Source: Anisakis pegreffii (lineage: Eukaryota > Nematoda > Chromadorea > Rhabditida > Anisakidae). From it: a stretch of 64,000 nucleotides of DNA. The stretch covers positions 44,025-108,024 of the forward strand of contig JAPYMA010000072.1 in assembly GCA_035041965.1 (NCBI GenBank), written 5' to 3'. A program made the position numbers and the translations under genes. Shown here piece after piece: positions 11,935 to 64,000 of this stretch; the stretch's first letter is position 1; every line of letters begins with the position of its first letter. The notes below the pieces were generated by a model. That model made no database searches. It was not told the DNA's origin and worked only from the letters and a program-made list of their open reading frames with translations.

Positions 11935-11939
11935 GTTGG

Positions 11940-42591: not shown

Positions 42592-42826
42592 TCAAACTTC
42601 TCCATGACACAATGGACAGTAACGCATGGAGCTGATTTGCTGCTCATAAGCGCGGTGCTTACACGTAGGACACAACCAGAACTGATAATCAAGTAACGGT
42701 CTTCCGCTGACAATACAAGTTGGAAATTTAGTGTCACAATTTGGACACATTTGGCAATAATCGGGTATGTGTGCGTCACATCCAGTGCATTCGACCTGAA
42801 CCAAACGGGTGTCATTTGGTGGATAC
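42592..42826 (-). CDS. WDR35: WDR35 last exon, zinc-binding C terminus and stop
   Basis: Acceptor AATTTCAG, stop TGA at 42592-42594. Several CxxC pairs (CTGC, CPNC, CPTC, CPLC) with a nearby His form the Cys-rich module. [11 protein letters not shown] and CPLCHGEV are family hallmarks. Confidence 0.95.
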
Positions 42827-48800: not shown

Positions 48801-50526
48801 TGAAAGCATTACTTAGCGAGCCATTTTTAATCCAAGGGCATCCAAAAGGCATACAAATCACGTACAAGTCACTGCTATTCGTGCTGGTTGGTAATGATTC
48901 ACGTCGAGAGCTTCTTGGAATCACATAGCGCCACAGGAAAAACGCATCAGCACTGGCAACCAGCACCTCGGAGCCATTCATTGCAACAAATTTCGGTTCC
49001 AAATCAATATACTTCGAATCCACCGGAGTACCAATCCCGTTGCAAATTTGCATGAAGTACTGCAAAACGCGAGTGATCACAATTGACGAAATCAAGCGAT
49101 TATGATCTGTCTCTACTGATCAGGCAAAACAATCGGCATTTCAGGAATAATCCACCAATACATACCTATCATGACTTGAGACATCATCCGTTTGACGACG
49201 GCCAATTTCATTAACATCTATGCTTCATTAGTTCAATTGAGAGAAAAGCGTGGAATCAACGAAAACAAACCATTCCAGCTTGATCATCAGCACGATTCAC
49301 CACCACACAATGATCTTCGAATGCAGCAATATGTAACAATTGTTTCACATATTTCTGATAACATTCTTCGAGTTTTGTCTCAAAAAACACAACACAATGC
49401 TCATTTTGTTCGGATCGTTCATAGCTGTAAACCACTGTTTGCCCACAATATGCCCACTGAAATGAACATCTATTACCTACCCACCTGTCAATGTCGACTC
49501 AGTCGACAGATAAATTTCACGACCTATTACGATCCACTGCCATCGAATACAGTGCAGCAATCGGTGGCGATTTTCAAACAATTCACGACCTATTGTTTTA
49601 TGTCATCAGCGGTTCGAACGGTGACACTGCTCAAAAACTTCATGGAATCCACACAAGTAAAGTTTAGCCTACTCATGTGCATTTCCTAGCCTTTAAATCT
49701 CATGAACATCAGTTCAATCTCCTTATGGCAAAACCATCACTAAGTCATTGCATGCGATCAAATTTCAATTGCTTCAAAGTCACAAAATGTTAGAACTCAT
49801 AAACAAACAGCAAAAAGCCCGACAACGTTCCATGGTTCCACTCACCAATACGTCATGACTGTTAGTAGGTATGAATCAACATAAAAAATTTCCACAACCA
49901 TTCTAAAAATCATCGATAACAACATTGACAACATAAGTCCGATAGAGATTAACTAGCATGTTGCAAAGAAATACCGTGTAGTTGGGGCGAATGTTTGCGA
50001 AGAAGAGGTGAGAATCGATTGCCATACAAATACGCAGCCCTCCACCTTCCCATGTCAAATCGGATATAGTTTGGCCGGGAATTTGAAGGAGACGCTGGCG
50101 CTGCAGAACAAATACATCATCAGTACAAATTATATCCGTTCGACAGAGGAGGACTCGTTAACTGGACCGGCAGGTAAACGAACAAACGCATTCTTTCGAG
50201 TGGAAAGGGCCTAATTATAGGATTAATTTTAACTTCTTAGAGAGATGAGAATTTCACGAAGGTTTAGGACAGTGGCAAGAACTGAGCAAAAGCCCATCTC
50301 ATTGTTTCTGGTGACATTAAACAGCTTTTCAAGAATGACAACATCGCAACGGACGCTACGAAAACAAAGTTCCCAGCAATTACATCGCCATACGCAGTCA
50401 CAAAATGGACGACACACTTTTCAACATCAAGATCAGTTTGTAGACCGCAAATTGCAAGCAAGGAACCATCTGGACTCCACTTCGCCTTGCTTAAAATCAT
50501 ATTCGGCAGCTTGATCACAATTGGAC
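42592..50526 (-). CDS. WDR35: WDR35 / IFT121, intraflagellar transport A subunit (5'-partial, 18 exons)
   Basis: Exons in coding order: 50384-50526, 49975-50100, 49271-49456, 48730-49059, 48377-48430, 47896-48117, 47476-47673, 47107-47313, 46591-46823, 46260-46392, 45902-45964, 45546-45678, 45270-45352, 44842-44979, 44396-44531, 43983-44069, 42947-43076, 42592-42826. All phases agree, giving 944 codons plus stop. IFT121 is a peripheral subunit of IFT-A, which drives retrograde transport in cilia and the entry of membrane proteins. The first exons give the end of the first WD propeller and the second, the middle a helical TPR-like solenoid ([26 protein letters not shown]), and the end a Cys-rich zinc-binding module finishing with CPLCHGEV. 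About the first 285 residues of the family's usual ~1180 are absent and should lie past 64000, beyond the tRNA array. The C. elegans counterpart is ifta-1. Confidence 0.92.
42947..43076 (-). CDS. WDR35: WDR35 exon, [11 protein letters not shown] region
   Basis: Acceptor TTTTTCAG, donor GTAAGG. Encodes [14 protein letters not shown] and [11 protein letters not shown]. Confidence 0.92.
43600..43640. repeat. AT-rich trinucleotide run in a WDR35 intron
   Basis: Imperfect TTA/TAA repeats within the intron 43077-43982, the longest intron inside the visible part of WDR35. Confidence 0.6.
43983..44069 (-). CDS. WDR35: WDR35 exon, [13 protein letters not shown] region
   Basis: Acceptor TATACCAG, donor GTATCG. 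Encodes [20 protein letters not shown]. Confidence 0.9.
44396..44531 (-). CDS. WDR35: WDR35 exon, [10 protein letters not shown] region
   Basis: Acceptor TAATTTAG, donor GTACCA (phase 1). Encodes GLLEEDNAL and [21 protein letters not shown] 64-codon frame on the + strand here is its shadow. Confidence 0.92.
44842..44979 (-). CDS. WDR35: WDR35 exon, [15 protein letters not shown] region
   Basis: Acceptor CTGTTTCAG, donor GTAAGC. Encodes [19 protein letters not shown], then a charged linker. Confidence 0.93.
45270..45352 (-). CDS. WDR35: WDR35 exon, [12 protein letters not shown] region
   Basis: Acceptor TTTCTTCAG, donor GTATGC. Encodes [20 protein letters not shown]. Confidence 0.88.
45546..45678 (-). 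CDS. WDR35: WDR35 exon, [10 protein letters not shown] region
   Basis: Acceptor AATTTCAG, donor GTCGGT (phase 1). Encodes [20 protein letters not shown]. Confidence 0.9.
45902..45964 (-). CDS. WDR35: WDR35 exon, 21 codons
   Basis: Acceptor GATTTCAG, donor GTAAGA. Encodes [12 protein letters not shown], a solenoid helix. Confidence 0.88.
46260..46392 (-). CDS. WDR35: WDR35 exon, solenoid
   Basis: Acceptor AATTTTAG, donor GTCCAA. Encodes [20 protein letters not shown], a TPR-like helix pair. Confidence 0.88.
46591..46823 (-). CDS. WDR35: WDR35 exon, [10 protein letters not shown] region
   Basis: Acceptor TGTCATAG, donor GTTCGT. Encodes [20 protein letters not shown] and GDYYADRQN, among the best kept parts of the family. 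Confidence 0.93.
47107..47313 (-). CDS. WDR35: WDR35 exon, start of helical solenoid
   Basis: Acceptor GGTTTCAG, donor GTATCT. Encodes [13 protein letters not shown] and [14 protein letters not shown], helical repeats typical of IFT-A subunits. Confidence 0.92.
47476..47673 (-). CDS. WDR35: WDR35 exon, MEKTRMYV region
   Basis: Encodes [11 protein letters not shown] and [18 protein letters not shown], very close to the family. The acceptor (TATTTGAAG) is less typical. Donor GTTCTT. Confidence 0.9.
47896..48117 (-). CDS. WDR35: WDR35 exon, [12 protein letters not shown] region
   Basis: Acceptor CTTTTCAG, donor GTATCG. Encodes [13 protein letters not shown] and [10 protein letters not shown], the end of the second propeller. 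Confidence 0.92.
48377..48430 (-). CDS. WDR35: WDR35 exon, 18 codons
   Basis: Acceptor CTGATTTCAG, donor GTAAGT. Encodes [16 protein letters not shown], the counterpart of a conserved strand in the second propeller. Confidence 0.85.
48730..49059 (-). CDS. WDR35: WDR35 exon, [10 protein letters not shown] region
   Basis: Acceptor TTTTGCAG, donor GTAAGA. Encodes [20 protein letters not shown] and later FRIYHIDD, both family landmarks. Between them lie about 22 residues unlike the family, which may be an unspliced small intron ending in GCTTTCAG. Confidence 0.85.
49271..49456 (-). CDS. WDR35: WDR35 exon, second propeller start
   Basis: Acceptor TTCATTTCAG, donor GTTTGT. Encodes [14 protein letters not shown] and CVVFFETK. 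A 165-codon frame on the + strand over this exon is its shadow. Confidence 0.88.
49975..50100 (-). CDS. WDR35: WDR35 exon, FANIRPNY region
   Basis: Acceptor TTCTGCAG, donor GTATTT. Encodes [18 protein letters not shown] and FFANIRPNY, segments well kept across IFT121 proteins. Confidence 0.9.
50384..50526 (-). CDS. WDR35: WDR35 exon, WD repeat of first propeller
   Basis: Acceptor TCTTTTCAG, donor GTAATT. Contains [14 protein letters not shown], a typical WD blade strand matching about residue 290 of vertebrate WDR35. It is the most 5' exon visible. The 165 bases before the array hold no further exon. Confidence 0.85.
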
Positions 50527-50749
50527 CTGAAAAGACGCGCGAAATGCTAAAGGTATTATTATGAAAGATAAAAATGACTGAACTCAATTCGACTCAAAAA
50601 CGAATCCATCGGATTCACATCCTCAACAAAACCTCATCCGTAACCTCGTGATGAAATGTAATTGTTATCTAATTGTAAGTTGAATTAAAAATGTGAATAA
50701 GCAGCCTGCTTGGTTCAACAGAAGCGGAAGGACTGTATTTGTGGCCGCG

Positions 50750-50760
50750 TGGCGCAATGG
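50750..50760 (+). promoter_or_regulatory. Internal A box of tRNA copy 1
   Basis: TGGCGCAATGG matches the RNA polymerase III A box. It sits at the same place in every copy. Confidence 0.9.
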
Positions 50761-50793
50761 ACAACGCGTCGGTCTACGGAACCGAAGATTGCA

Positions 50794-50804
50794 GGTTCGA
50801 ATCC
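50794..50804 (+). promoter_or_regulatory. Internal B box of tRNA copy 1
   Basis: GGTTCGAATCC is a perfect B box, the main TFIIIC binding site, and is repeated in every unit. Confidence 0.95.
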
Positions 50805-50819
50805 TGCCGTGGTCGAAGA

Positions 50820-50823
50820 TTTT
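50820..50823 (+). terminator. Pol III terminator of tRNA copy 1
   Basis: TTTT begins five bases after the discriminator base. Two more T4 runs follow within about 35 bases and could catch read-through. Confidence 0.85.
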
Positions 50824-50927
50824 GCTTAATTTTGAGCTATCTTTTACATTGCTAACGCGTCTGATAACCTTTGGAGTGTGAATAAGCAGCCTGCTTGGTT
50901 CAACTGAAGCGGAAGGACTGTATTTGT

Positions 50928-51000
50928 GGCCGCGTGGCGCAATGGACAACGCGTCGGTCTACGGAACCGAAGATTGCAGGTTCGAATCCTGCCGTGGTCG
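50928..51000 (+). tRNA. tRNA-Arg(ACG), copy 2
   Basis: Same as copy 1; the first copy with the standard 5' flank. Confidence 0.97.
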
Positions 51001-51112
51001 AAGATTTTGCTTAATTTTGAGCTATCTTTTACATTGCTAACGCGTCTGATAACCTTTGGAGTGTGAATAAGCAGCCTGCTTGGTTCAACTGAAGCGGAAG
51101 GACTGTATTTGT

Positions 51113-51185
51113 GGCCGCGTGGCGCAATGGACAACGCGTCGGTCTACGGAACCGAAGATTGCAGGTTCGAATCCTGCCGTGGTCG
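51113..51185 (+). tRNA. tRNA-Arg(ACG), copy 3
   Basis: Same as copy 1. Confidence 0.97.
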
Positions 51186-51297
51186 AAGATTTTGCTTAAT
51201 TTTGAGCTATCTTTTACATTGCTAACGCGTCTGATAACCTTTGGAGTGTGAATAAGCAGCCTGCTTGGTTCAACTGAAGCGGAAGGACTGTATTTGT

Positions 51298-51370
51298 GGC
51301 CGCGTGGCGCAATGGACAACGCGTCGGTCTACGGAACCGAAGATTGCAGGTTCGAATCCTGCCGTGGTCG
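51298..51370 (+). tRNA. tRNA-Arg(ACG), copy 4
   Basis: Same as copy 1. Confidence 0.97.
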
Positions 51371-51482
51371 AAGATTTTGCTTAATTTTGAGCTATCTTTT
51401 ACATTGCTAACGCGTCTGATAACCTTTGGAGTGTGAATAAGCAGCCTGCTTGGTTCAACTGAAGCGGAAGGACTGTATTTGT

Positions 51483-51555
51483 GGCCGCGTGGCGCAATGG
51501 ACAACGCGTCGGTCTACGGAACCGAAGATTGCAGGTTCGAATCCTGCCGTGGTCG
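51483..51555 (+). tRNA. tRNA-Arg(ACG), copy 5
   Basis: Same as copy 1. Confidence 0.97.
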
Positions 51556-51667
51556 AAGATTTTGCTTAATTTTGAGCTATCTTTTACATTGCTAACGCGT
51601 CTGATAACCTTTGGAGTGTGAATAAGCAGCCTGCTTGGTTCAACTGAAGCGGAAGGACTGTATTTGT

Positions 51668-51740
51668 GGCCGCGTGGCGCAATGGACAACGCGTCGGTCT
51701 ACGGAACCGAAGATTGCAGGTTCGAATCCTGCCGTGGTCG
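51668..51740 (+). tRNA. tRNA-Arg(ACG), copy 6
   Basis: Same as copy 1. Confidence 0.97.
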
Positions 51741-51852
51741 AAGATTTTGCTTAATTTTGAGCTATCTTTTACATTGCTAACGCGTCTGATAACCTTTGGA
51801 GTGTGAATAAGCAGCCTGCTTGGTTCAACTGAAGCGGAAGGACTGTATTTGT

Positions 51853-51925
51853 GGCCGCGTGGCGCAATGGACAACGCGTCGGTCTACGGAACCGAAGATT
51901 GCAGGTTCGAATCCTGCCGTGGTCG
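51853..51925 (+). tRNA. tRNA-Arg(ACG), copy 7
   Basis: Same as copy 1. Confidence 0.97.
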
Positions 51926-52037
51926 AAGATTTTGCTTAATTTTGAGCTATCTTTTACATTGCTAACGCGTCTGATAACCTTTGGAGTGTGAATAAGCAGC
52001 CTGCTTGGTTCAACTGAAGCGGAAGGACTGTATTTGT

Positions 52038-52110
52038 GGCCGCGTGGCGCAATGGACAACGCGTCGGTCTACGGAACCGAAGATTGCAGGTTCGAATCCT
52101 GCCGTGGTCG
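52038..52110 (+). tRNA. tRNA-Arg(ACG), copy 8
   Basis: Same as copy 1. Confidence 0.97.
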
Positions 52111-52222
52111 AAGATTTTGCTTAATTTTGAGCTATCTTTTACATTGCTAACGCGTCTGATAACCTTTGGAGTGTGAATAAGCAGCCTGCTTGGTTCAACT
52201 GAAGCGGAAGGACTGTATTTGT

Positions 52223-52295
52223 GGCCGCGTGGCGCAATGGACAACGCGTCGGTCTACGGAACCGAAGATTGCAGGTTCGAATCCTGCCGTGGTCG
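52223..52295 (+). tRNA. tRNA-Arg(ACG), copy 9
   Basis: Same as copy 1. Confidence 0.97.
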
Positions 52296-52407
52296 AAGAT
52301 TTTGCTTAATTTTGAGCTATCTTTTACATTGCTAACGCGTCTGATAACCTTTGGAGTGTGAATAAGCAGCCTGCTTGGTTCAACTGAAGCGGAAGGACTG
52401 TATTTGT

Positions 52408-52480
52408 GGCCGCGTGGCGCAATGGACAACGCGTCGGTCTACGGAACCGAAGATTGCAGGTTCGAATCCTGCCGTGGTCG
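52408..52480 (+). tRNA. tRNA-Arg(ACG), copy 10
   Basis: Same as copy 1. Confidence 0.97.
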
Positions 52481-52592
52481 AAGATTTTGCTTAATTTTGA
52501 GCTATCTTTTACATTGCTAACGCGTCTGATAACCTTTGGAGTGTGAATAAGCAGCCTGCTTGGTTCAACTGAAGCGGAAGGACTGTATTTGT

Positions 52593-52665
52593 GGCCGCGT
52601 GGCGCAATGGACAACGCGTCGGTCTACGGAACCGAAGATTGCAGGTTCGAATCCTGCCGTGGTCG
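52593..52665 (+). tRNA. tRNA-Arg(ACG), copy 11
   Basis: Same as copy 1. Confidence 0.97.
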
Positions 52666-52777
52666 AAGATTTTGCTTAATTTTGAGCTATCTTTTACATT
52701 GCTAACGCGTCTGATAACCTTTGGAGTGTGAATAAGCAGCCTGCTTGGTTCAACTGAAGCGGAAGGACTGTATTTGT

Positions 52778-52850
52778 GGCCGCGTGGCGCAATGGACAAC
52801 GCGTCGGTCTACGGAACCGAAGATTGCAGGTTCGAATCCTGCCGTGGTCG
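52778..52850 (+). tRNA. tRNA-Arg(ACG), copy 12
   Basis: Same as copy 1. Confidence 0.97.
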
Positions 52851-52962
52851 AAGATTTTGCTTAATTTTGAGCTATCTTTTACATTGCTAACGCGTCTGAT
52901 AACCTTTGGAGTGTGAATAAGCAGCCTGCTTGGTTCAACTGAAGCGGAAGGACTGTATTTGT

Positions 52963-53035
52963 GGCCGCGTGGCGCAATGGACAACGCGTCGGTCTACGGA
53001 ACCGAAGATTGCAGGTTCGAATCCTGCCGTGGTCG
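52963..53035 (+). tRNA. tRNA-Arg(ACG), copy 13
   Basis: Same as copy 1. Confidence 0.97.
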
Positions 53036-53147
53036 AAGATTTTGCTTAATTTTGAGCTATCTTTTACATTGCTAACGCGTCTGATAACCTTTGGAGTGTG
53101 AATAAGCAGCCTGCTTGGTTCAACTGAAGCGGAAGGACTGTATTTGT

Positions 53148-53220
53148 GGCCGCGTGGCGCAATGGACAACGCGTCGGTCTACGGAACCGAAGATTGCAGG
53201 TTCGAATCCTGCCGTGGTCG
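53148..53220 (+). tRNA. tRNA-Arg(ACG), copy 14
   Basis: Same as copy 1. Confidence 0.97.
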
Positions 53221-53332
53221 AAGATTTTGCTTAATTTTGAGCTATCTTTTACATTGCTAACGCGTCTGATAACCTTTGGAGTGTGAATAAGCAGCCTGCT
53301 TGGTTCAACTGAAGCGGAAGGACTGTATTTGT

Positions 53333-53405
53333 GGCCGCGTGGCGCAATGGACAACGCGTCGGTCTACGGAACCGAAGATTGCAGGTTCGAATCCTGCCGT
53401 GGTCG
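53333..53405 (+). tRNA. tRNA-Arg(ACG), copy 15
   Basis: Same as copy 1. Confidence 0.97.
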
Positions 53406-53517
53406 AAGATTTTGCTTAATTTTGAGCTATCTTTTACATTGCTAACGCGTCTGATAACCTTTGGAGTGTGAATAAGCAGCCTGCTTGGTTCAACTGAAGC
53501 GGAAGGACTGTATTTGT

Positions 53518-53590
53518 GGCCGCGTGGCGCAATGGACAACGCGTCGGTCTACGGAACCGAAGATTGCAGGTTCGAATCCTGCCGTGGTCG
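53518..53590 (+). tRNA. tRNA-Arg(ACG), copy 16
   Basis: Same as copy 1; the second T run downstream is T5 (53605-53609) instead of T4. Confidence 0.97.
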
Positions 53591-53703
53591 AAGATTTTGC
53601 TTAATTTTTGAGCTATCTTTTACATTGCTAACGCGTCTGATAACCTTTGGAGTGTGAATAAGCAGCCTGCTTGGTTCAACTGAAGCGGAAGGACTGTATT
53701 TGT

Positions 53704-53776
53704 GGCCGCGTGGCGCAATGGACAACGCGTCGGTCTACGGAACCGAAGATTGCAGGTTCGAATCCTGCCGTGGTCG
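53704..53776 (+). tRNA. tRNA-Arg(ACG), copy 17
   Basis: Same as copy 1. Confidence 0.97.
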
Positions 53777-53888
53777 AAGATTTTGCTTAATTTTGAGCTA
53801 TCTTTTACATTGCTAACGCGTCTGATAACCTTTGGAGTGTGAATAAGCAGCCTGCTTGGTTCAACTGAAGCGGAAGGACTGTATTTGT

Positions 53889-53961
53889 GGCCGCGTGGCG
53901 CAATGGACAACGCGTCGGTCTACGGAACCGAAGATTGCAGGTTCGAATCCTGCCGTGGTCG
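53889..53961 (+). tRNA. tRNA-Arg(ACG), copy 18
   Basis: Same as copy 1. Confidence 0.97.
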
Positions 53962-54073
53962 AAGATTTTGCTTAATTTTGAGCTATCTTTTACATTGCTA
54001 ACGCGTCTGATAACCTTTGGAGTGTGAATAAGCAGCCTGCTTGGTTCAACTGAAGCGGAAGGACTGTATTTGT

Positions 54074-54146
54074 GGCCGCGTGGCGCAATGGACAACGCGT
54101 CGGTCTACGGAACCGAAGATTGCAGGTTCGAATCCTGCCGTGGTCG
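54074..54146 (+). tRNA. tRNA-Arg(ACG), copy 19
   Basis: Same as copy 1. Confidence 0.97.
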
Positions 54147-54258
54147 AAGATTTTGCTTAATTTTGAGCTATCTTTTACATTGCTAACGCGTCTGATAACC
54201 TTTGGAGTGTGAATAAGCAGCCTGCTTGGTTCAACTGAAGCGGAAGGACTGTATTTGT

Positions 54259-54331
54259 GGCCGCGTGGCGCAATGGACAACGCGTCGGTCTACGGAACCG
54301 AAGATTGCAGGTTCGAATCCTGCCGTGGTCG
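54259..54331 (+). tRNA. tRNA-Arg(ACG), copy 20
   Basis: Same as copy 1. Confidence 0.97.
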
Positions 54332-54443
54332 AAGATTTTGCTTAATTTTGAGCTATCTTTTACATTGCTAACGCGTCTGATAACCTTTGGAGTGTGAATA
54401 AGCAGCCTGCTTGGTTCAACTGAAGCGGAAGGACTGTATTTGT

Positions 54444-54516
54444 GGCCGCGTGGCGCAATGGACAACGCGTCGGTCTACGGAACCGAAGATTGCAGGTTCG
54501 AATCCTGCCGTGGTCG
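54444..54516 (+). tRNA. tRNA-Arg(ACG), copy 21
   Basis: Same as copy 1. Confidence 0.97.
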
Positions 54517-54628
54517 AAGATTTTGCTTAATTTTGAGCTATCTTTTACATTGCTAACGCGTCTGATAACCTTTGGAGTGTGAATAAGCAGCCTGCTTGGT
54601 TCAACTGAAGCGGAAGGACTGTATTTGT

Positions 54629-54701
54629 GGCCGCGTGGCGCAATGGACAACGCGTCGGTCTACGGAACCGAAGATTGCAGGTTCGAATCCTGCCGTGGTC
54701 G
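54629..54701 (+). tRNA. tRNA-Arg(ACG), copy 22
   Basis: Same as copy 1. Confidence 0.97.
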
Positions 54702-54813
54702 AAGATTTTGCTTAATTTTGAGCTATCTTTTACATTGCTAACGCGTCTGATAACCTTTGGAGTGTGAATAAGCAGCCTGCTTGGTTCAACTGAAGCGGAA
54801 GGACTGTATTTGT

Positions 54814-54886
54814 GGCCGCGTGGCGCAATGGACAACGCGTCGGTCTACGGAACCGAAGATTGCAGGTTCGAATCCTGCCGTGGTCG
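54814..54886 (+). tRNA. tRNA-Arg(ACG), copy 23
   Basis: Same as copy 1. Confidence 0.97.
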
Positions 54887-54998
54887 AAGATTTTGCTTAA
54901 TTTTGAGCTATCTTTTACATTGCTAACGCGTCTGATAACCTTTGGAGTGTGAATAAGCAGCCTGCTTGGTTCAACTGAAGCGGAAGGACTGTATTTGT

Positions 54999-55071
54999 GG
55001 CCGCGTGGCGCAATGGACAACGCGTCGGTCTACGGAACCGAAGATTGCAGGTTCGAATCCTGCCGTGGTCG
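54999..55071 (+). tRNA. tRNA-Arg(ACG), copy 24
   Basis: Same as copy 1. Confidence 0.97.
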
Positions 55072-55183
55072 AAGATTTTGCTTAATTTTGAGCTATCTTT
55101 TACATTGCTAACGCGTCTGATAACCTTTGGAGTGTGAATAAGCAGCCTGCTTGGTTCAACTGAAGCGGAAGGACTGTATTTGT

Positions 55184-55256
55184 GGCCGCGTGGCGCAATG
55201 GACAACGCGTCGGTCTACGGAACCGAAGATTGCAGGTTCGAATCCTGCCGTGGTCG
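55184..55256 (+). tRNA. tRNA-Arg(ACG), copy 25
   Basis: Same as copy 1. Confidence 0.97.
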
Positions 55257-55368
55257 AAGATTTTGCTTAATTTTGAGCTATCTTTTACATTGCTAACGCG
55301 TCTGATAACCTTTGGAGTGTGAATAAGCAGCCTGCTTGGTTCAACTGAAGCGGAAGGACTGTATTTGT

Positions 55369-55441
55369 GGCCGCGTGGCGCAATGGACAACGCGTCGGTC
55401 TACGGAACCGAAGATTGCAGGTTCGAATCCTGCCGTGGTCG
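55369..55441 (+). tRNA. tRNA-Arg(ACG), copy 26
   Basis: Same as copy 1. Confidence 0.97.
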
Positions 55442-55553
55442 AAGATTTTGCTTAATTTTGAGCTATCTTTTACATTGCTAACGCGTCTGATAACCTTTGG
55501 AGTGTGAATAAGCAGCCTGCTTGGTTCAACTGAAGCGGAAGGACTGTATTTGT

Positions 55554-55626
55554 GGCCGCGTGGCGCAATGGACAACGCGTCGGTCTACGGAACCGAAGAT
55601 TGCAGGTTCGAATCCTGCCGTGGTCG
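55554..55626 (+). tRNA. tRNA-Arg(ACG), copy 27
   Basis: Same as copy 1. Confidence 0.97.
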
Positions 55627-55738
55627 AAGATTTTGCTTAATTTTGAGCTATCTTTTACATTGCTAACGCGTCTGATAACCTTTGGAGTGTGAATAAGCAG
55701 CCTGCTTGGTTCAACTGAAGCGGAAGGACTGTATTTGT

Positions 55739-55811
55739 GGCCGCGTGGCGCAATGGACAACGCGTCGGTCTACGGAACCGAAGATTGCAGGTTCGAATCC
55801 TGCCGTGGTCG
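55739..55811 (+). tRNA. tRNA-Arg(ACG), copy 28
   Basis: Same as copy 1. Confidence 0.97.
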
Positions 55812-55923
55812 AAGATTTTGCTTAATTTTGAGCTATCTTTTACATTGCTAACGCGTCTGATAACCTTTGGAGTGTGAATAAGCAGCCTGCTTGGTTCAAC
55901 TGAAGCGGAAGGACTGTATTTGT

Positions 55924-55996
55924 GGCCGCGTGGCGCAATGGACAACGCGTCGGTCTACGGAACCGAAGATTGCAGGTTCGAATCCTGCCGTGGTCG
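55924..55996 (+). tRNA. tRNA-Arg(ACG), copy 29
   Basis: Same as copy 1. Confidence 0.97.
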
Positions 55997-56108
55997 AAGA
56001 TTTTGCTTAATTTTGAGCTATCTTTTACATTGCTAACGCGTCTGATAACCTTTGGAGTGTGAATAAGCAGCCTGCTTGGTTCAACTGAAGCGGAAGGACT
56101 GTATTTGT

Positions 56109-56181
56109 GGCCGCGTGGCGCAATGGACAACGCGTCGGTCTACGGAACCGAAGATTGCAGGTTCGAATCCTGCCGTGGTCG
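56109..56181 (+). tRNA. tRNA-Arg(ACG), copy 30
   Basis: Same as copy 1. Confidence 0.97.
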
Positions 56182-56293
56182 AAGATTTTGCTTAATTTTG
56201 AGCTATCTTTTACATTGCTAACGCGTCTGATAACCTTTGGAGTGTGAATAAGCAGCCTGCTTGGTTCAACTGAAGCGGAAGGACTGTATTTGT

Positions 56294-56366
56294 GGCCGCG
56301 TGGCGCAATGGACAACGCGTCGGTCTACGGAACCGAAGATTGCAGGTTCGAATCCTGCCGTGGTCG
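56294..56366 (+). tRNA. tRNA-Arg(ACG), copy 31
   Basis: Same as copy 1. Confidence 0.97.
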
Positions 56367-56478
56367 AAGATTTTGCTTAATTTTGAGCTATCTTTTACAT
56401 TGCTAACGCGTCTGATAACCTTTGGAGTGTGAATAAGCAGCCTGCTTGGTTCAACTGAAGCGGAAGGACTGTATTTGT

Positions 56479-56551
56479 GGCCGCGTGGCGCAATGGACAA
56501 CGCGTCGGTCTACGGAACCGAAGATTGCAGGTTCGAATCCTGCCGTGGTCG
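56479..56551 (+). tRNA. tRNA-Arg(ACG), copy 32
   Basis: Same as copy 1. Confidence 0.97.
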
Positions 56552-56663
56552 AAGATTTTGCTTAATTTTGAGCTATCTTTTACATTGCTAACGCGTCTGA
56601 TAACCTTTGGAGTGTGAATAAGCAGCCTGCTTGGTTCAACTGAAGCGGAAGGACTGTATTTGT

Positions 56664-56736
56664 GGCCGCGTGGCGCAATGGACAACGCGTCGGTCTACGG
56701 AACCGAAGATTGCAGGTTCGAATCCTGCCGTGGTCG
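56664..56736 (+). tRNA. tRNA-Arg(ACG), copy 33
   Basis: Same as copy 1. Confidence 0.97.
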
Positions 56737-56848
56737 AAGATTTTGCTTAATTTTGAGCTATCTTTTACATTGCTAACGCGTCTGATAACCTTTGGAGTGT
56801 GAATAAGCAGCCTGCTTGGTTCAACTGAAGCGGAAGGACTGTATTTGT

Positions 56849-56921
56849 GGCCGCGTGGCGCAATGGACAACGCGTCGGTCTACGGAACCGAAGATTGCAG
56901 GTTCGAATCCTGCCGTGGTCG
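56849..56921 (+). tRNA. tRNA-Arg(ACG), copy 34
   Basis: Same as copy 1. Confidence 0.97.
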
Positions 56922-57033
56922 AAGATTTTGCTTAATTTTGAGCTATCTTTTACATTGCTAACGCGTCTGATAACCTTTGGAGTGTGAATAAGCAGCCTGC
57001 TTGGTTCAACTGAAGCGGAAGGACTGTATTTGT

Positions 57034-57106
57034 GGCCGCGTGGCGCAATGGACAACGCGTCGGTCTACGGAACCGAAGATTGCAGGTTCGAATCCTGCCG
57101 TGGTCG
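57034..57106 (+). tRNA. tRNA-Arg(ACG), copy 35
   Basis: Same as copy 1. Confidence 0.97.
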
Positions 57107-57218
57107 AAGATTTTGCTTAATTTTGAGCTATCTTTTACATTGCTAACGCGTCTGATAACCTTTGGAGTGTGAATAAGCAGCCTGCTTGGTTCAACTGAAG
57201 CGGAAGGACTGTATTTGT

Positions 57219-57291
57219 GGCCGCGTGGCGCAATGGACAACGCGTCGGTCTACGGAACCGAAGATTGCAGGTTCGAATCCTGCCGTGGTCG
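57219..57291 (+). tRNA. tRNA-Arg(ACG), copy 36
   Basis: Same as copy 1; T5 (57306-57310) downstream, the same variant as after copy 16. Confidence 0.97.
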
Positions 57292-57404
57292 AAGATTTTG
57301 CTTAATTTTTGAGCTATCTTTTACATTGCTAACGCGTCTGATAACCTTTGGAGTGTGAATAAGCAGCCTGCTTGGTTCAACTGAAGCGGAAGGACTGTAT
57401 TTGT

Positions 57405-57477
57405 GGCCGCGTGGCGCAATGGACAACGCGTCGGTCTACGGAACCGAAGATTGCAGGTTCGAATCCTGCCGTGGTCG
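57405..57477 (+). tRNA. tRNA-Arg(ACG), copy 37
   Basis: Same as copy 1. Confidence 0.97.
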
Positions 57478-57589
57478 AAGATTTTGCTTAATTTTGAGCT
57501 ATCTTTTACATTGCTAACGCGTCTGATAACCTTTGGAGTGTGAATAAGCAGCCTGCTTGGTTCAACTGAAGCGGAAGGACTGTATTTGT

Positions 57590-57662
57590 GGCCGCGTGGC
57601 GCAATGGACAACGCGTCGGTCTACGGAACCGAAGATTGCAGGTTCGAATCCTGCCGTGGTCG
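57590..57662 (+). tRNA. tRNA-Arg(ACG), copy 38
   Basis: Same as copy 1. Confidence 0.97.
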
Positions 57663-57774
57663 AAGATTTTGCTTAATTTTGAGCTATCTTTTACATTGCT
57701 AACGCGTCTGATAACCTTTGGAGTGTGAATAAGCAGCCTGCTTGGTTCAACTGAAGCGGAAGGACTGTATTTGT

Positions 57775-57847
57775 GGCCGCGTGGCGCAATGGACAACGCG
57801 TCGGTCTACGGAACCGAAGATTGCAGGTTCGAATCCTGCCGTGGTCG
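57775..57847 (+). tRNA. tRNA-Arg(ACG), copy 39
   Basis: Same as copy 1. Confidence 0.97.
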
Positions 57848-57959
57848 AAGATTTTGCTTAATTTTGAGCTATCTTTTACATTGCTAACGCGTCTGATAAC
57901 CTTTGGAGTGTGAATAAGCAGCCTGCTTGGTTCAACTGAAGCGGAAGGACTGTATTTGT

Positions 57960-58032
57960 GGCCGCGTGGCGCAATGGACAACGCGTCGGTCTACGGAACC
58001 GAAGATTGCAGGTTCGAATCCTGCCGTGGTCG
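57960..58032 (+). tRNA. tRNA-Arg(ACG), copy 40
   Basis: Same as copy 1. Confidence 0.97.
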
Positions 58033-58144
58033 AAGATTTTGCTTAATTTTGAGCTATCTTTTACATTGCTAACGCGTCTGATAACCTTTGGAGTGTGAAT
58101 AAGCAGCCTGCTTGGTTCAACTGAAGCGGAAGGACTGTATTTGT

Positions 58145-58217
58145 GGCCGCGTGGCGCAATGGACAACGCGTCGGTCTACGGAACCGAAGATTGCAGGTTC
58201 GAATCCTGCCGTGGTCG
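58145..58217 (+). tRNA. tRNA-Arg(ACG), copy 41
   Basis: Same as copy 1. Confidence 0.97.
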
Positions 58218-58329
58218 AAGATTTTGCTTAATTTTGAGCTATCTTTTACATTGCTAACGCGTCTGATAACCTTTGGAGTGTGAATAAGCAGCCTGCTTGG
58301 TTCAACTGAAGCGGAAGGACTGTATTTGT

Positions 58330-58402
58330 GGCCGCGTGGCGCAATGGACAACGCGTCGGTCTACGGAACCGAAGATTGCAGGTTCGAATCCTGCCGTGGT
58401 CG
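58330..58402 (+). tRNA. tRNA-Arg(ACG), copy 42
   Basis: Same as copy 1. Confidence 0.97.
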
Positions 58403-58514
58403 AAGATTTTGCTTAATTTTGAGCTATCTTTTACATTGCTAACGCGTCTGATAACCTTTGGAGTGTGAATAAGCAGCCTGCTTGGTTCAACTGAAGCGGA
58501 AGGACTGTATTTGT

Positions 58515-58587
58515 GGCCGCGTGGCGCAATGGACAACGCGTCGGTCTACGGAACCGAAGATTGCAGGTTCGAATCCTGCCGTGGTCG
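58515..58587 (+). tRNA. tRNA-Arg(ACG), copy 43
   Basis: Same as copy 1. Confidence 0.97.
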
Positions 58588-58699
58588 AAGATTTTGCTTA
58601 ATTTTGAGCTATCTTTTACATTGCTAACGCGTCTGATAACCTTTGGAGTGTGAATAAGCAGCCTGCTTGGTTCAACTGAAGCGGAAGGACTGTATTTGT

Positions 58700-58772
58700 G
58701 GCCGCGTGGCGCAATGGACAACGCGTCGGTCTACGGAACCGAAGATTGCAGGTTCGAATCCTGCCGTGGTCG
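58700..58772 (+). tRNA. tRNA-Arg(ACG), copy 44
   Basis: Same as copy 1. Confidence 0.97.
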
Positions 58773-58884
58773 AAGATTTTGCTTAATTTTGAGCTATCTT
58801 TTACATTGCTAACGCGTCTGATAACCTTTGGAGTGTGAATAAGCAGCCTGCTTGGTTCAACTGAAGCGGAAGGACTGTATTTGT

Positions 58885-58957
58885 GGCCGCGTGGCGCAAT
58901 GGACAACGCGTCGGTCTACGGAACCGAAGATTGCAGGTTCGAATCCTGCCGTGGTCG
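58885..58957 (+). tRNA. tRNA-Arg(ACG), copy 45
   Basis: Same as copy 1. Confidence 0.97.
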
Positions 58958-59069
58958 AAGATTTTGCTTAATTTTGAGCTATCTTTTACATTGCTAACGC
59001 GTCTGATAACCTTTGGAGTGTGAATAAGCAGCCTGCTTGGTTCAACTGAAGCGGAAGGACTGTATTTGT

Positions 59070-59142
59070 GGCCGCGTGGCGCAATGGACAACGCGTCGGT
59101 CTACGGAACCGAAGATTGCAGGTTCGAATCCTGCCGTGGTCG
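59070..59142 (+). tRNA. tRNA-Arg(ACG), copy 46
   Basis: Same as copy 1. Confidence 0.97.
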
Positions 59143-59254
59143 AAGATTTTGCTTAATTTTGAGCTATCTTTTACATTGCTAACGCGTCTGATAACCTTTG
59201 GAGTGTGAATAAGCAGCCTGCTTGGTTCAACTGAAGCGGAAGGACTGTATTTGT

Positions 59255-59327
59255 GGCCGCGTGGCGCAATGGACAACGCGTCGGTCTACGGAACCGAAGA
59301 TTGCAGGTTCGAATCCTGCCGTGGTCG
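59255..59327 (+). tRNA. tRNA-Arg(ACG), copy 47
   Basis: Same as copy 1. Confidence 0.97.
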
Positions 59328-59439
59328 AAGATTTTGCTTAATTTTGAGCTATCTTTTACATTGCTAACGCGTCTGATAACCTTTGGAGTGTGAATAAGCA
59401 GCCTGCTTGGTTCAACTGAAGCGGAAGGACTGTATTTGT

Positions 59440-59512
59440 GGCCGCGTGGCGCAATGGACAACGCGTCGGTCTACGGAACCGAAGATTGCAGGTTCGAATC
59501 CTGCCGTGGTCG
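59440..59512 (+). tRNA. tRNA-Arg(ACG), copy 48
   Basis: Same as copy 1. Confidence 0.97.
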
Positions 59513-59624
59513 AAGATTTTGCTTAATTTTGAGCTATCTTTTACATTGCTAACGCGTCTGATAACCTTTGGAGTGTGAATAAGCAGCCTGCTTGGTTCAA
59601 CTGAAGCGGAAGGACTGTATTTGT

Positions 59625-59697
59625 GGCCGCGTGGCGCAATGGACAACGCGTCGGTCTACGGAACCGAAGATTGCAGGTTCGAATCCTGCCGTGGTCG
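59625..59697 (+). tRNA. tRNA-Arg(ACG), copy 49
   Basis: Same as copy 1. Confidence 0.97.
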
Positions 59698-59809
59698 AAG
59701 ATTTTGCTTAATTTTGAGCTATCTTTTACATTGCTAACGCGTCTGATAACCTTTGGAGTGTGAATAAGCAGCCTGCTTGGTTCAACTGAAGCGGAAGGAC
59801 TGTATTTGT

Positions 59810-59882
59810 GGCCGCGTGGCGCAATGGACAACGCGTCGGTCTACGGAACCGAAGATTGCAGGTTCGAATCCTGCCGTGGTCG
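59810..59882 (+). tRNA. tRNA-Arg(ACG), copy 50
   Basis: Same as copy 1. Confidence 0.97.
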
Positions 59883-59994
59883 AAGATTTTGCTTAATTTT
59901 GAGCTATCTTTTACATTGCTAACGCGTCTGATAACCTTTGGAGTGTGAATAAGCAGCCTGCTTGGTTCAACTGAAGCGGAAGGACTGTATTTGT

Positions 59995-60067
59995 GGCCGC
60001 GTGGCGCAATGGACAACGCGTCGGTCTACGGAACCGAAGATTGCAGGTTCGAATCCTGCCGTGGTCG
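59995..60067 (+). tRNA. tRNA-Arg(ACG), copy 51
   Basis: Same as copy 1. Confidence 0.97.
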
Positions 60068-60179
60068 AAGATTTTGCTTAATTTTGAGCTATCTTTTACA
60101 TTGCTAACGCGTCTGATAACCTTTGGAGTGTGAATAAGCAGCCTGCTTGGTTCAACTGAAGCGGAAGGACTGTATTTGT

Positions 60180-60252
60180 GGCCGCGTGGCGCAATGGACA
60201 ACGCGTCGGTCTACGGAACCGAAGATTGCAGGTTCGAATCCTGCCGTGGTCG
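60180..60252 (+). tRNA. tRNA-Arg(ACG), copy 52
   Basis: Same as copy 1. Confidence 0.97.
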
Positions 60253-60364
60253 AAGATTTTGCTTAATTTTGAGCTATCTTTTACATTGCTAACGCGTCTG
60301 ATAACCTTTGGAGTGTGAATAAGCAGCCTGCTTGGTTCAACTGAAGCGGAAGGACTGTATTTGT

Positions 60365-60437
60365 GGCCGCGTGGCGCAATGGACAACGCGTCGGTCTACG
60401 GAACCGAAGATTGCAGGTTCGAATCCTGCCGTGGTCG
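60365..60437 (+). tRNA. tRNA-Arg(ACG), copy 53
   Basis: Same as copy 1. Confidence 0.97.
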
Positions 60438-60549
60438 AAGATTTTGCTTAATTTTGAGCTATCTTTTACATTGCTAACGCGTCTGATAACCTTTGGAGTG
60501 TGAATAAGCAGCCTGCTTGGTTCAACTGAAGCGGAAGGACTGTATTTGT

Positions 60550-60622
60550 GGCCGCGTGGCGCAATGGACAACGCGTCGGTCTACGGAACCGAAGATTGCA
60601 GGTTCGAATCCTGCCGTGGTCG
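60550..60622 (+). tRNA. tRNA-Arg(ACG), copy 54
   Basis: Same as copy 1. Confidence 0.97.
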
Positions 60623-60734
60623 AAGATTTTGCTTAATTTTGAGCTATCTTTTACATTGCTAACGCGTCTGATAACCTTTGGAGTGTGAATAAGCAGCCTG
60701 CTTGGTTCAACTGAAGCGGAAGGACTGTATTTGT

Positions 60735-60807
60735 GGCCGCGTGGCGCAATGGACAACGCGTCGGTCTACGGAACCGAAGATTGCAGGTTCGAATCCTGCC
60801 GTGGTCG
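60735..60807 (+). tRNA. tRNA-Arg(ACG), copy 55
   Basis: Same as copy 1. Confidence 0.97.
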
Positions 60808-60919
60808 AAGATTTTGCTTAATTTTGAGCTATCTTTTACATTGCTAACGCGTCTGATAACCTTTGGAGTGTGAATAAGCAGCCTGCTTGGTTCAACTGAA
60901 GCGGAAGGACTGTATTTGT

Positions 60920-60992
60920 GGCCGCGTGGCGCAATGGACAACGCGTCGGTCTACGGAACCGAAGATTGCAGGTTCGAATCCTGCCGTGGTCG
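60920..60992 (+). tRNA. tRNA-Arg(ACG), copy 56
   Basis: Same as copy 1. Confidence 0.97.
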
Positions 60993-61104
60993 AAGATTTT
61001 GCTTAATTTTGAGCTATCTTTTACATTGCTAACGCGTCTGATAACCTTTGGAGTGTGAATAAGCAGCCTGCTTGGTTCAACTGAAGCGGAAGGACTGTAT
61101 TTGT

Positions 61105-61177
61105 GGCCGCGTGGCGCAATGGACAACGCGTCGGTCTACGGAACCGAAGATTGCAGGTTCGAATCCTGCCGTGGTCG
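61105..61177 (+). tRNA. tRNA-Arg(ACG), copy 57
   Basis: Same as copy 1. Confidence 0.97.
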
Positions 61178-61289
61178 AAGATTTTGCTTAATTTTGAGCT
61201 ATCTTTTACATTGCTAACGCGTCTGATAACCTTTGGAGTGTGAATAAGCAGCCTGCTTGGTTCAACTGAAGCGGAAGGACTGTATTTGT

Positions 61290-61362
61290 GGCCGCGTGGC
61301 GCAATGGACAACGCGTCGGTCTACGGAACCGAAGATTGCAGGTTCGAATCCTGCCGTGGTCG
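61290..61362 (+). tRNA. tRNA-Arg(ACG), copy 58
   Basis: Same as copy 1. Confidence 0.97.
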
Positions 61363-61474
61363 AAGATTTTGCTTAATTTTGAGCTATCTTTTACATTGCT
61401 AACGCGTCTGATAACCTTTGGAGTGTGAATAAGCAGCCTGCTTGGTTCAACTGAAGCGGAAGGACTGTATTTGT

Positions 61475-61547
61475 GGCCGCGTGGCGCAATGGACAACGCG
61501 TCGGTCTACGGAACCGAAGATTGCAGGTTCGAATCCTGCCGTGGTCG
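61475..61547 (+). tRNA. tRNA-Arg(ACG), copy 59
   Basis: Same as copy 1. Confidence 0.97.
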
Positions 61548-61659
61548 AAGATTTTGCTTAATTTTGAGCTATCTTTTACATTGCTAACGCGTCTGATAAC
61601 CTTTGGAGTGTGAATAAGCAGCCTGCTTGGTTCAACTGAAGCGGAAGGACTGTATTTGT

Positions 61660-61732
61660 GGCCGCGTGGCGCAATGGACAACGCGTCGGTCTACGGAACC
61701 GAAGATTGCAGGTTCGAATCCTGCCGTGGTCG
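61660..61732 (+). tRNA. tRNA-Arg(ACG), copy 60
   Basis: Same as copy 1. Confidence 0.97.
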
Positions 61733-61844
61733 AAGATTTTGCTTAATTTTGAGCTATCTTTTACATTGCTAACGCGTCTGATAACCTTTGGAGTGTGAAT
61801 AAGCAGCCTGCTTGGTTCAACTGAAGCGGAAGGACTGTATTTGT

Positions 61845-61917
61845 GGCCGCGTGGCGCAATGGACAACGCGTCGGTCTACGGAACCGAAGATTGCAGGTTC
61901 GAATCCTGCCGTGGTCG
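61845..61917 (+). tRNA. tRNA-Arg(ACG), copy 61
   Basis: Same as copy 1. Confidence 0.97.
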
Positions 61918-62029
61918 AAGATTTTGCTTAATTTTGAGCTATCTTTTACATTGCTAACGCGTCTGATAACCTTTGGAGTGTGAATAAGCAGCCTGCTTGG
62001 TTCAACTGAAGCGGAAGGACTGTATTTGT

Positions 62030-62102
62030 GGCCGCGTGGCGCAATGGACAACGCGTCGGTCTACGGAACCGAAGATTGCAGGTTCGAATCCTGCCGTGGT
62101 CG
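62030..62102 (+). tRNA. tRNA-Arg(ACG), copy 62
   Basis: Same as copy 1. Confidence 0.97.
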
Positions 62103-62214
62103 AAGATTTTGCTTAATTTTGAGCTATCTTTTACATTGCTAACGCGTCTGATAACCTTTGGAGTGTGAATAAGCAGCCTGCTTGGTTCAACTGAAGCGGA
62201 AGGACTGTATTTGT

Positions 62215-62287
62215 GGCCGCGTGGCGCAATGGACAACGCGTCGGTCTACGGAACCGAAGATTGCAGGTTCGAATCCTGCCGTGGTCG
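62215..62287 (+). tRNA. tRNA-Arg(ACG), copy 63
   Basis: Same as copy 1. Confidence 0.97.
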
Positions 62288-62399
62288 AAGATTTTGCTTA
62301 ATTTTGAGCTATCTTTTACATTGCTAACGCGTCTGATAACCTTTGGAGTGTGAATAAGCAGCCTGCTTGGTTCAACTGAAGCGGAAGGACTGTATTTGT

Positions 62400-62472
62400 G
62401 GCCGCGTGGCGCAATGGACAACGCGTCGGTCTACGGAACCGAAGATTGCAGGTTCGAATCCTGCCGTGGTCG
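62400..62472 (+). tRNA. tRNA-Arg(ACG), copy 64
   Basis: Same as copy 1. Confidence 0.97.
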
Positions 62473-62584
62473 AAGATTTTGCTTAATTTTGAGCTATCTT
62501 TTACATTGCTAACGCGTCTGATAACCTTTGGAGTGTGAATAAGCAGCCTGCTTGGTTCAACTGAAGCGGAAGGACTGTATTTGT

Positions 62585-62657
62585 GGCCGCGTGGCGCAAT
62601 GGACAACGCGTCGGTCTACGGAACCGAAGATTGCAGGTTCGAATCCTGCCGTGGTCG
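62585..62657 (+). tRNA. tRNA-Arg(ACG), copy 65
   Basis: Same as copy 1. Confidence 0.97.
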
Positions 62658-62769
62658 AAGATTTTGCTTAATTTTGAGCTATCTTTTACATTGCTAACGC
62701 GTCTGATAACCTTTGGAGTGTGAATAAGCAGCCTGCTTGGTTCAACTGAAGCGGAAGGACTGTATTTGT

Positions 62770-62842
62770 GGCCGCGTGGCGCAATGGACAACGCGTCGGT
62801 CTACGGAACCGAAGATTGCAGGTTCGAATCCTGCCGTGGTCG
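62770..62842 (+). tRNA. tRNA-Arg(ACG), copy 66
   Basis: Same as copy 1. Confidence 0.97.
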
Positions 62843-62954
62843 AAGATTTTGCTTAATTTTGAGCTATCTTTTACATTGCTAACGCGTCTGATAACCTTTG
62901 GAGTGTGAATAAGCAGCCTGCTTGGTTCAACTGAAGCGGAAGGACTGTATTTGT

Positions 62955-63027
62955 GGCCGCGTGGCGCAATGGACAACGCGTCGGTCTACGGAACCGAAGA
63001 TTGCAGGTTCGAATCCTGCCGTGGTCG
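62955..63027 (+). tRNA. tRNA-Arg(ACG), copy 67
   Basis: Same as copy 1. Confidence 0.97.
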
Positions 63028-63139
63028 AAGATTTTGCTTAATTTTGAGCTATCTTTTACATTGCTAACGCGTCTGATAACCTTTGGAGTGTGAATAAGCA
63101 GCCTGCTTGGTTCAACTGAAGCGGAAGGACTGTATTTGT

Positions 63140-63212
63140 GGCCGCGTGGCGCAATGGACAACGCGTCGGTCTACGGAACCGAAGATTGCAGGTTCGAATC
63201 CTGCCGTGGTCG
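63140..63212 (+). tRNA. tRNA-Arg(ACG), copy 68
   Basis: Same as copy 1. Confidence 0.97.
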
Positions 63213-63324
63213 AAGATTTTGCTTAATTTTGAGCTATCTTTTACATTGCTAACGCGTCTGATAACCTTTGGAGTGTGAATAAGCAGCCTGCTTGGTTCAA
63301 CTGAAGCGGAAGGACTGTATTTGT

Positions 63325-63398
63325 GGCCGCGTGGCGCAATGGACAACGCGTCGGTCTACGGGAACCGAAGATTGCAGGTTCGAATCCTGCCGTGGTCG
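63325..63398 (+). tRNA. tRNA-Arg copy 69, eight-base anticodon loop
   Basis: 74 bases: one extra G makes the anticodon loop CTACGGGA, eight bases instead of seven. If real, this copy could be defective or a frameshifting decoder. It may equally be a sequence error, since it lies where other single-base differences begin. Confidence 0.85.
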
Positions 63399-63510
63399 AA
63401 GATTTTGCTTAATTTTGAGCTATCTTTTACATTGCTAACGCGTCTGATAACCTTTGGAGTGTGAATAAGCAGCCTGCTTGGTTCAACTGAAGCGGAAGGA
63501 CTGTATTTGT

Positions 63511-63583
63511 GGCCGCGTGGCGCAATGGACAACGCGTCGGTCTACGGAACCGAAGATTGCAGGTTCGAATCCTGCCGTGGTCG
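63511..63583 (+). tRNA. tRNA-Arg(ACG), copy 70
   Basis: Same as copy 1; one extra T in the spacer that follows (63638-63641). Confidence 0.96.
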
Positions 63584-63696
63584 AAGATTTTGCTTAATTT
63601 TGAGCTATCTTTTACATTGCTAACGCGTCTGATAACCTTTTGGAGTGTGAATAAGCAGCCTGCTTGGTTCAACTGAAGCGGAAGGACTGTATTTGT

Positions 63697-63769
63697 GGCC
63701 GCGTGGCGCAATGGACAACGCGTCGGTCTACGGAACCGAAGATTGCAGGTTCGAATCCTGCCGTGGTCG
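63697..63769 (+). tRNA. tRNA-Arg(ACG), copy 71
   Basis: Same as copy 1; one extra G in the spacer that follows (about 63790). Confidence 0.96.
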
Positions 63770-63882
63770 AAGATTTTGCTTAATTTTGAGGCTATCTTTT
63801 ACATTGCTAACGCGTCTGATAACCTTTGGAGTGTGAATAAGCAGCCTGCTTGGTTCAACTGAAGCGGAAGGACTGTATTTGT

Positions 63883-63955
63883 GGCCGCGTGGCGCAATGG
63901 ACAACGCGTCGGTCTACGGAACCGAAGATTGCAGGTTCGAATCCTGCCGTGGTCG
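63883..63955 (+). tRNA. tRNA-Arg(ACG), copy 72
   Basis: Same as copy 1. The 3' spacer has C for T at 63966 and diverges after 63990, where the window ends. Confidence 0.96.
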
Positions 63956-64000
63956 AAGATTTTGCCTAATTTTGAGCTATCTTTTACATTAAGCTAACGT

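Follow-up and report, generated by a model that had tools for sequence, protein, structure and literature searches.

A tandem array of at least 72 tRNA-Arg(ACG) genes in Anisakis pegreffii, one of a set of arrays apparently devoted each to one amino acid

The tRNA-Arg(ACG) array and its putative host gene

The stretch of DNA analysed here, which we call the window, comprises 64,000 nucleotides of the nematode Anisakis pegreffii (assembly GCA_035041965.1, contig JAPYMA010000072.1, forward-strand positions 44,025 to 108,024), and its right-hand end is occupied by a long array of tRNA-Arg(ACG) genes. A previous inspection of the letters (the sequence-only reading) had described 72 copies lying head to tail with a period of 185 bases over more than 13 kb, a description on which ARAGORN, Rfam and Tandem Repeats Finder (TRF) agree. 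That reading had proposed a tRNA finder as a check, for which we used ARAGORN and the Rfam model RF00005, and both recovered 72 genes. Specifically, ARAGORN called 72 plus-strand genes between positions 50742 and 63956, 71 as tRNA-Arg(ACG) and one whose anticodon loop contains an additional G. The same genes scored 60.2 bits (71 genes) and 52.5 bits (one gene) with RF00005, all above the gathering score of 29 bits. TRF reported a period of 185, 71.9 copies and 99% matches, and found no shorter repeat inside the unit.

The units are close to uniform. The step from one to the next is 185 bp in 66 of 71 cases and 186 bp in the other five, and 65 of the 72 units are identical letter for letter. 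Units 16 and 36 carry one extra T each, units 69–71 have one inserted base each, and unit 72 is partial and changed; the irregularity of units 69–72 may reflect poor-quality sequence, or sequence error, at the contig end. Every copy had been described as intact, which holds for box A, box B and the run of four thymidines (T4) just 3' of the gene in all 72 units, but the full 73-nt gene is intact in 71, the exception being unit 69 with its extra G. Because the contig ends inside the array, at window position 64000, 72 is a minimum copy number. Contigs are referred to below by labels such as C44 (which bears the window), C1060 and C309, all from the one assembly of 122.7 Mb. A pattern taken from the unit spacer has 72 exact matches in the whole assembly, all on C44, and its reversed control has none. 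A tRNA-derived short interspersed nuclear element was considered and ruled out, since the spacer pattern is confined to C44 and not dispersed.

The array also appears to be placed antisense within an intron of WDR35/IFT121, a feature absent from the sequence-only reading. To its left lie minus-strand exons of this gene that run from 50526 down to about 42595, where the C-terminal zinc finger lies, and that start with the end of the first beta-propeller. The first exons were located on C1060, again on the minus strand, and the last of these ends 197 bp from the left end of that contig. The donor GTAAGT after this exon and the acceptor TTTTCAG before the window exon form a canonical pair, and the exons of both contigs, once joined, can be read through in a single open frame, which agrees with the Anisakis protein either side of the junction. 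The deposited Anisakis WDR35 model is about 21 residues longer at the join, an excess that corresponds to the 3' end of the intron in this genome. Because the gene is split between C44 and C1060 in this way, the array most likely starts 165 bp from the acceptor of an intron that is 13.7 kb long or more, and lies antisense within it. The right edge of the array was sought on C1060, which starts with other sequence and in whose first 4.6 kb no tRNA was called, so the right-edge junction is absent from the assembly.

The best named WDR35 match, using a query pieced together by eye, was to Anisakis simplex (84%), with further matches to Toxocara canis (77%) and, in part, to Gnathostoma spinigerum (68%). 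In a tblastn comparison with the A. simplex WDR35 protein, 14 of 23 pieces were 93–100% identical and nine were 62–89% identical, some of which may run into introns. WDR35 thereby points to an ascaridoid nematode near Anisakis, a single gene being too little to separate species of that genus. The COX1 frames on contig C496 look nematode-like, and their best database hits reach at most 87%.

Two other repeats were seen in the window. A 72-bp tandem repeat (3.6 copies, 11594-11855) lies within a plus-strand open frame (11442-12020) that has no Pfam match, and TRF detected imperfect 15-16-bp tandem repeats at 17013-17211 (TTTGCCTAACGAACAG then ATTAGGCAAACTATCC and similar). Elsewhere in the assembly, COX1 sequences with broken frames near the ends of contigs C496 and C446 are possible nuclear mitochondrial DNA copies or poor sequence.

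Sister arrays in the assembly

The locus had been interpreted as a long single-isoacceptor array in an animal that could serve tRNA supply. The evidence fits such an array, with supply as its likely use, but arrays of this sort are not confined to Arg(ACG), as there are at least 13 further array loci (Table 1). These were traced with the T-arm pattern GGTTCGANYCC by following the listed places, so that totals of arrays and units are minima. The pattern has 2022 matches in the assembly and its reversed form 74, a difference on the strength of which we rejected chance as an explanation. Among the matches listed, at least 622 units fall into at least 14 array loci for ten amino acids (Arg, Val, Tyr, Glu, Ile, Phe, Ser, Lys, Thr and Ala), and some tRNA genes are dispersed. 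An RF00005 search of the assembly, in which 63 of 7927 first-look candidates were scored, yields no genome total. All called units were typed on C44, C309 and C1717, anticodons were taken from the listed matches on C98, C405 and C1634, and the other arrays were typed from sampled pieces. Every array typed, in some cases through sampled units, showed a single amino acid.

The T-arm pattern also uncovered matches of another sort. T-arm-like matches recur every 510-515 bp, with TTTT at the place of the anticodon, at C199:77859-80444, C230:74486-76564 and C435:7166-7710, and belong to a different kind of repeat. Genes for tRNA-Lys(TTT) occur in pairs, about 172 bp apart, on C936, C1023 and C535, and on C1023 two pairs face each other.

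Table 1 Features of the window and tRNA gene arrays of the assembly. Window positions carry no contig label, except that C44 is added for the array itself.
Feature	Location	Strand	Evidence or remarks
tRNA-Arg(ACG) tandem array, 72 units, cut by the contig end	50692..64000 (C44)	+	ARAGORN, Rfam, TRF, spacer pattern
Unit 1, 185 bp, one substitution against the common unit	50692..50876	+	unit comparison
Unit 1 tRNA-Arg(ACG) gene with internal A and B boxes; recurs every 185-186 bp	50742..50816	+	ARAGORN, Rfam
Unit 1 T4 run, predicted RNA polymerase III stop	50820..50823	+	counterpart in 72/72 units
Unit 69 gene, one extra G in anticodon loop, close to contig end	63324..63399	+	ARAGORN, Rfam, unit comparison
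Part of WDR35/IFT121 intron that putatively contains the array	50527..64000	-	splice sites and open frame; other known part C1060:1-197; putative join of two contigs
WDR35/IFT121 exon adjoining the array, preceded by acceptor	50384..50526	-	splice/frame analysis
Remaining WDR35/IFT121 exons, to C-terminal zinc finger	42595..50100	-	exon mapping
Arg-TCG array	C309		48 calls, one of them CCG
Arg-CCT array	C1717		39 units
Val array	C13		at least 57 units among the matches listed, 172-bp steps
Tyr array, genes with intron	C28		8 units
Glu-CTC array	C41		49 units
Glu-TTC array	C80		at least 39 exact matches
Ile-AAT array	C76		57 units, one apart from the others
Ser-TGA array	C190		29 units
Phe-GAA array	C98		at least 96 units
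Lys-CTT array	C405		37 units
Thr array	C794		10 units
Thr array	C801		11 units, two sampled pieces
Ala array	C1634		at least 70 units

A concern already voiced in the sequence-only reading is that the array, or most of its length, could be an artefact of assembly. The contig ends within the array, the last four units are irregular, and 12 of the 14 array loci run to a contig end, the exceptions being those on C1717 and C405. Breaks at arrays are, however, what true long repeats would be expected to produce, and several arrays contain differences specific to single units. Moreover, the Arg-CCT array, with its 39 units, lies well inside C1717, and no tRNA was called for kilobases on either flank examined. 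The Lys-CTT array (37 units) is also internal to its contig, its last gene lying near 83.5 kb of the 144 kb of C405, and on the right flank, the side that was read, the interval 84.0-84.3 kb is free of tRNA. The Arg-CCT array, with unique sequence on both sides, thus answers the concern for the phenomenon, though not for the exact copy number in the window, and we consider an artefact highly improbable.

Constraint, turnover and anticodon change

Two diverged sister arrays allowed us to compare variation in the tRNA body with that in the spacer. Mean pairwise difference per site in the Arg-TCG array (48 units) was 0.015 for the tRNA, compared with 0.146 and 0.147 for the two flanks. In the Arg-CCT array, where two units that contained N or lay at an edge were dropped (leaving 37 of 39), the values were 0.021 for the tRNA and 0.098 and 0.196 for the flanks; the body is 7 to 10 times less variable than the spacer. 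The observed difference between body and flank was not attained when the sites were relabelled at random 20,000 times. A T4 run lies within 14 nt of the gene in 48 of 48 Arg-TCG and 37 of 37 Arg-CCT units, and in 12 of 13 arrays, judged from one unit each, a run of four or more thymidines starts no further than 7 nt from the gene. When the first six Arg-TCG units were left out the values became 0.0056 for the tRNA against 0.122.

Low body variation could have arisen if the finder had skipped degenerate units, an explanation that we rejected because the spacing of calls is regular; the few exceptions are one double step in the Arg-CCT array, where an N-bearing unit was dropped, and two steps, of 212 and 146 bp, in the early part of the Arg-TCG array. 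A degenerate copy, seen by eye, lies immediately outside the Arg-CCT array.

These data bear on the main rival explanation, in which the array is a largely silent satellite, that is, a tRNA-bearing unit multiplied by unequal exchange, most copies being useless and tolerated by the intron. The near-identity of 65 of the 72 units in the window is the pattern of a recent satellite expansion, the assembly has at least seven intact Arg-ACG genes dispersed outside the array, and a tandem tRNA cluster of Arabidopsis is silent in most tissues (PMC12308677; this and the other papers cited are represented by excerpts). Nevertheless, because the two older sister arrays have retained their bodies and terminators although their spacers have diverged, working genes are favoured over an inert satellite, and arrays for ten amino acids would be unlikely to come from a chance satellite. 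We regard a silent satellite as unlikely.

The sequence-only reading had also offered a chromosomal structure, in which arrays would act chiefly as a boundary, pause site or anchor through bound RNA polymerase III factors rather than through tRNA. A human tRNA tandem repeat has been proposed to be a boundary element (PMC4041453), and the array studied here lies apparently within a long intron. Such a role requires the A and B boxes but not an entire cloverleaf with its anticodon, whereas the whole Arg-TCG body is held (three distinct bodies among the 42 inner units), and in the Thr array on C794 (1-2600) all ten bodies of 72 nt are identical save for wobble base 34. As spacers vary while tRNA bodies and terminators barely do so in the two sister arrays, we disfavour this option relative to gene supply, and a mainly structural role seems to us very improbable.

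The arrays also bear marks of turnover. Two of the first three Arg-TCG units are the most diverged of that array, and in the Arg-CCT array likeness is greatest between units ten apart, as block exchange would give. At 48.7-49.5 kb of C1060 there are five units, 167-194 bp apart, including one intact Arg-ACG and one Arg-CCG gene. Over 329 bp that take in the spacer, this run shares 74% identity with the C44 unit. The run is likely a decayed relative, and it lies some 49 kb from where the C44 array is presumed to end on its far side. At position 68 (numbered by our own count) the gene of the C44 array has U, where all seven of the intact dispersed Arg-ACG genes seen so far have C or G.

Within some arrays the anticodon is mixed. 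The Thr array on C794 cycles through TGT-CGT-AGT with a period of 558 bp, and on C801 the same three anticodons are present in irregular order. The Ala array has 22 CGC and 48 TGC anticodons among the 70 matches listed (counted by eye), its bodies differing elsewhere too and not at base 34 alone. In the Val array, the two types found among four units read differ at base 34 and at one base of the D-arm. Animal tRNA genes are known to undergo isoacceptor remolding, including a change of primate Thr AGT to CGT and TGT (excerpts of PMC4981973); here it is located within tandem arrays.

A probable bank of tRNA genes and its known counterparts

Taken together, the results make it probable that the array, with its 72 or more tRNA-Arg(ACG) genes, is one of at least 14 apparently one-amino-acid arrays and serves as a multi-copy gene bank, whose units are predicted to be transcribed individually by RNA polymerase III. 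Each unit would be transcribed on its own, from internal A and B boxes to the T4 stop, and unequal exchange or slippage at the tRNA genes would enlarge and homogenise the arrays. Selection for working tRNAs would preserve body and terminator and leave the spacers to drift, a pattern akin to that of ribosomal DNA. Old arrays would decay, for which the five-unit relic on C1060 is suggestive, and new anticodons may arise from changes of base 34 in single units, as in the Ala, Val and Thr arrays.

Several points weigh against this reading. Transcription of the units is deduced from sequence, and the link from C44 to C1060 is a presumed join of two contigs. The units of C44 are too uniform to reveal constraint within that array. 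For the two sister arrays, circular shifts of the site labels reached the observed difference in 3 of 204 and 3 of 294 cases, and gene conversion restricted to the tRNA body could mimic constraint. In the one Val unit sampled, the first T4 comes only at 26 nt. Finally, the A. simplex contig carrying WDR35 is 24,724 bp long, less than the gene here (about 12.5 kb without the array) plus the 13.3 kb of the array. Provided that the remainder of the locus is similar in size, that species may thus have a shorter or collapsed array, or none.

A wider proposition, which we advance tentatively, is that this animal keeps much of its tRNA supply as it would ribosomal DNA, every amino acid or codon family having separate arrays in which bodies are homogenised while the wobble base is left free, so that arrays would be both gene banks and nurseries of anticodons. 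The occurrence of such arrays in an animal makes it possible to test array length as tRNA gene dosage, selection on one copy among dozens, and anticodon switching in a homogenised family. Because most array loci found here run to a contig end, draft genomes of related worms may conceal such arrays.

The closest known systems, as far as the excerpts go, resemble these arrays in part. Entamoeba also has many near-uniform units arranged head to tail, for which concerted evolution and unequal exchange have been proposed, but a single unit there can contain as many as five tRNA genes, in some cases together with 5S RNA, whereas here each array appears to serve one amino acid and the host is an animal; the genes of E. 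histolytica and E. dispar are also separated by short tandem repeats, unlike in the C44 unit (PMC2652664). In the human nucleus, a variable-number repeat at 1q23.3 likewise contains tandem tRNA genes, but in 7.3-kb units at one locus, with 9-43 units per allele and bound by CTCF, as opposed to the 185-bp, one-gene units and many loci described here (PMC4041453). The Ser/Tyr (SYY) cluster of Arabidopsis provides extra supply from tandem tRNA genes in root cap cells; it is a single cluster for two amino acids, silenced in most tissues, whereas the present array serves one amino acid and its transcription is predicted (PMC12308677). A survey of eukaryotic tRNA clusters found that tRNA genes of some animals, zebrafish and Nematostella among them, are numerous and clustered, as here, although the clusters of zebrafish, frog and Nematostella are mostly of mixed kind (PMC2888827).

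In the excerpts of that survey, tandem tRNA repeats had until then been reported solely in Entamoeba histolytica (PMC2888827), and homogeneous tandem arrays have been termed uncommon outside Entamoeba (PMC4041453). Among the titles and abstracts listed in our searches, which for broad queries covered the first entries and which lay outside subscription journals and preprints, none described tandem arrays of nuclear tRNA genes from a nematode. Tandem tRNA arrays are known from Entamoeba, and as single loci from human and Arabidopsis; what is apparently new is that a nematode has a set of them, each apparently for one amino acid.

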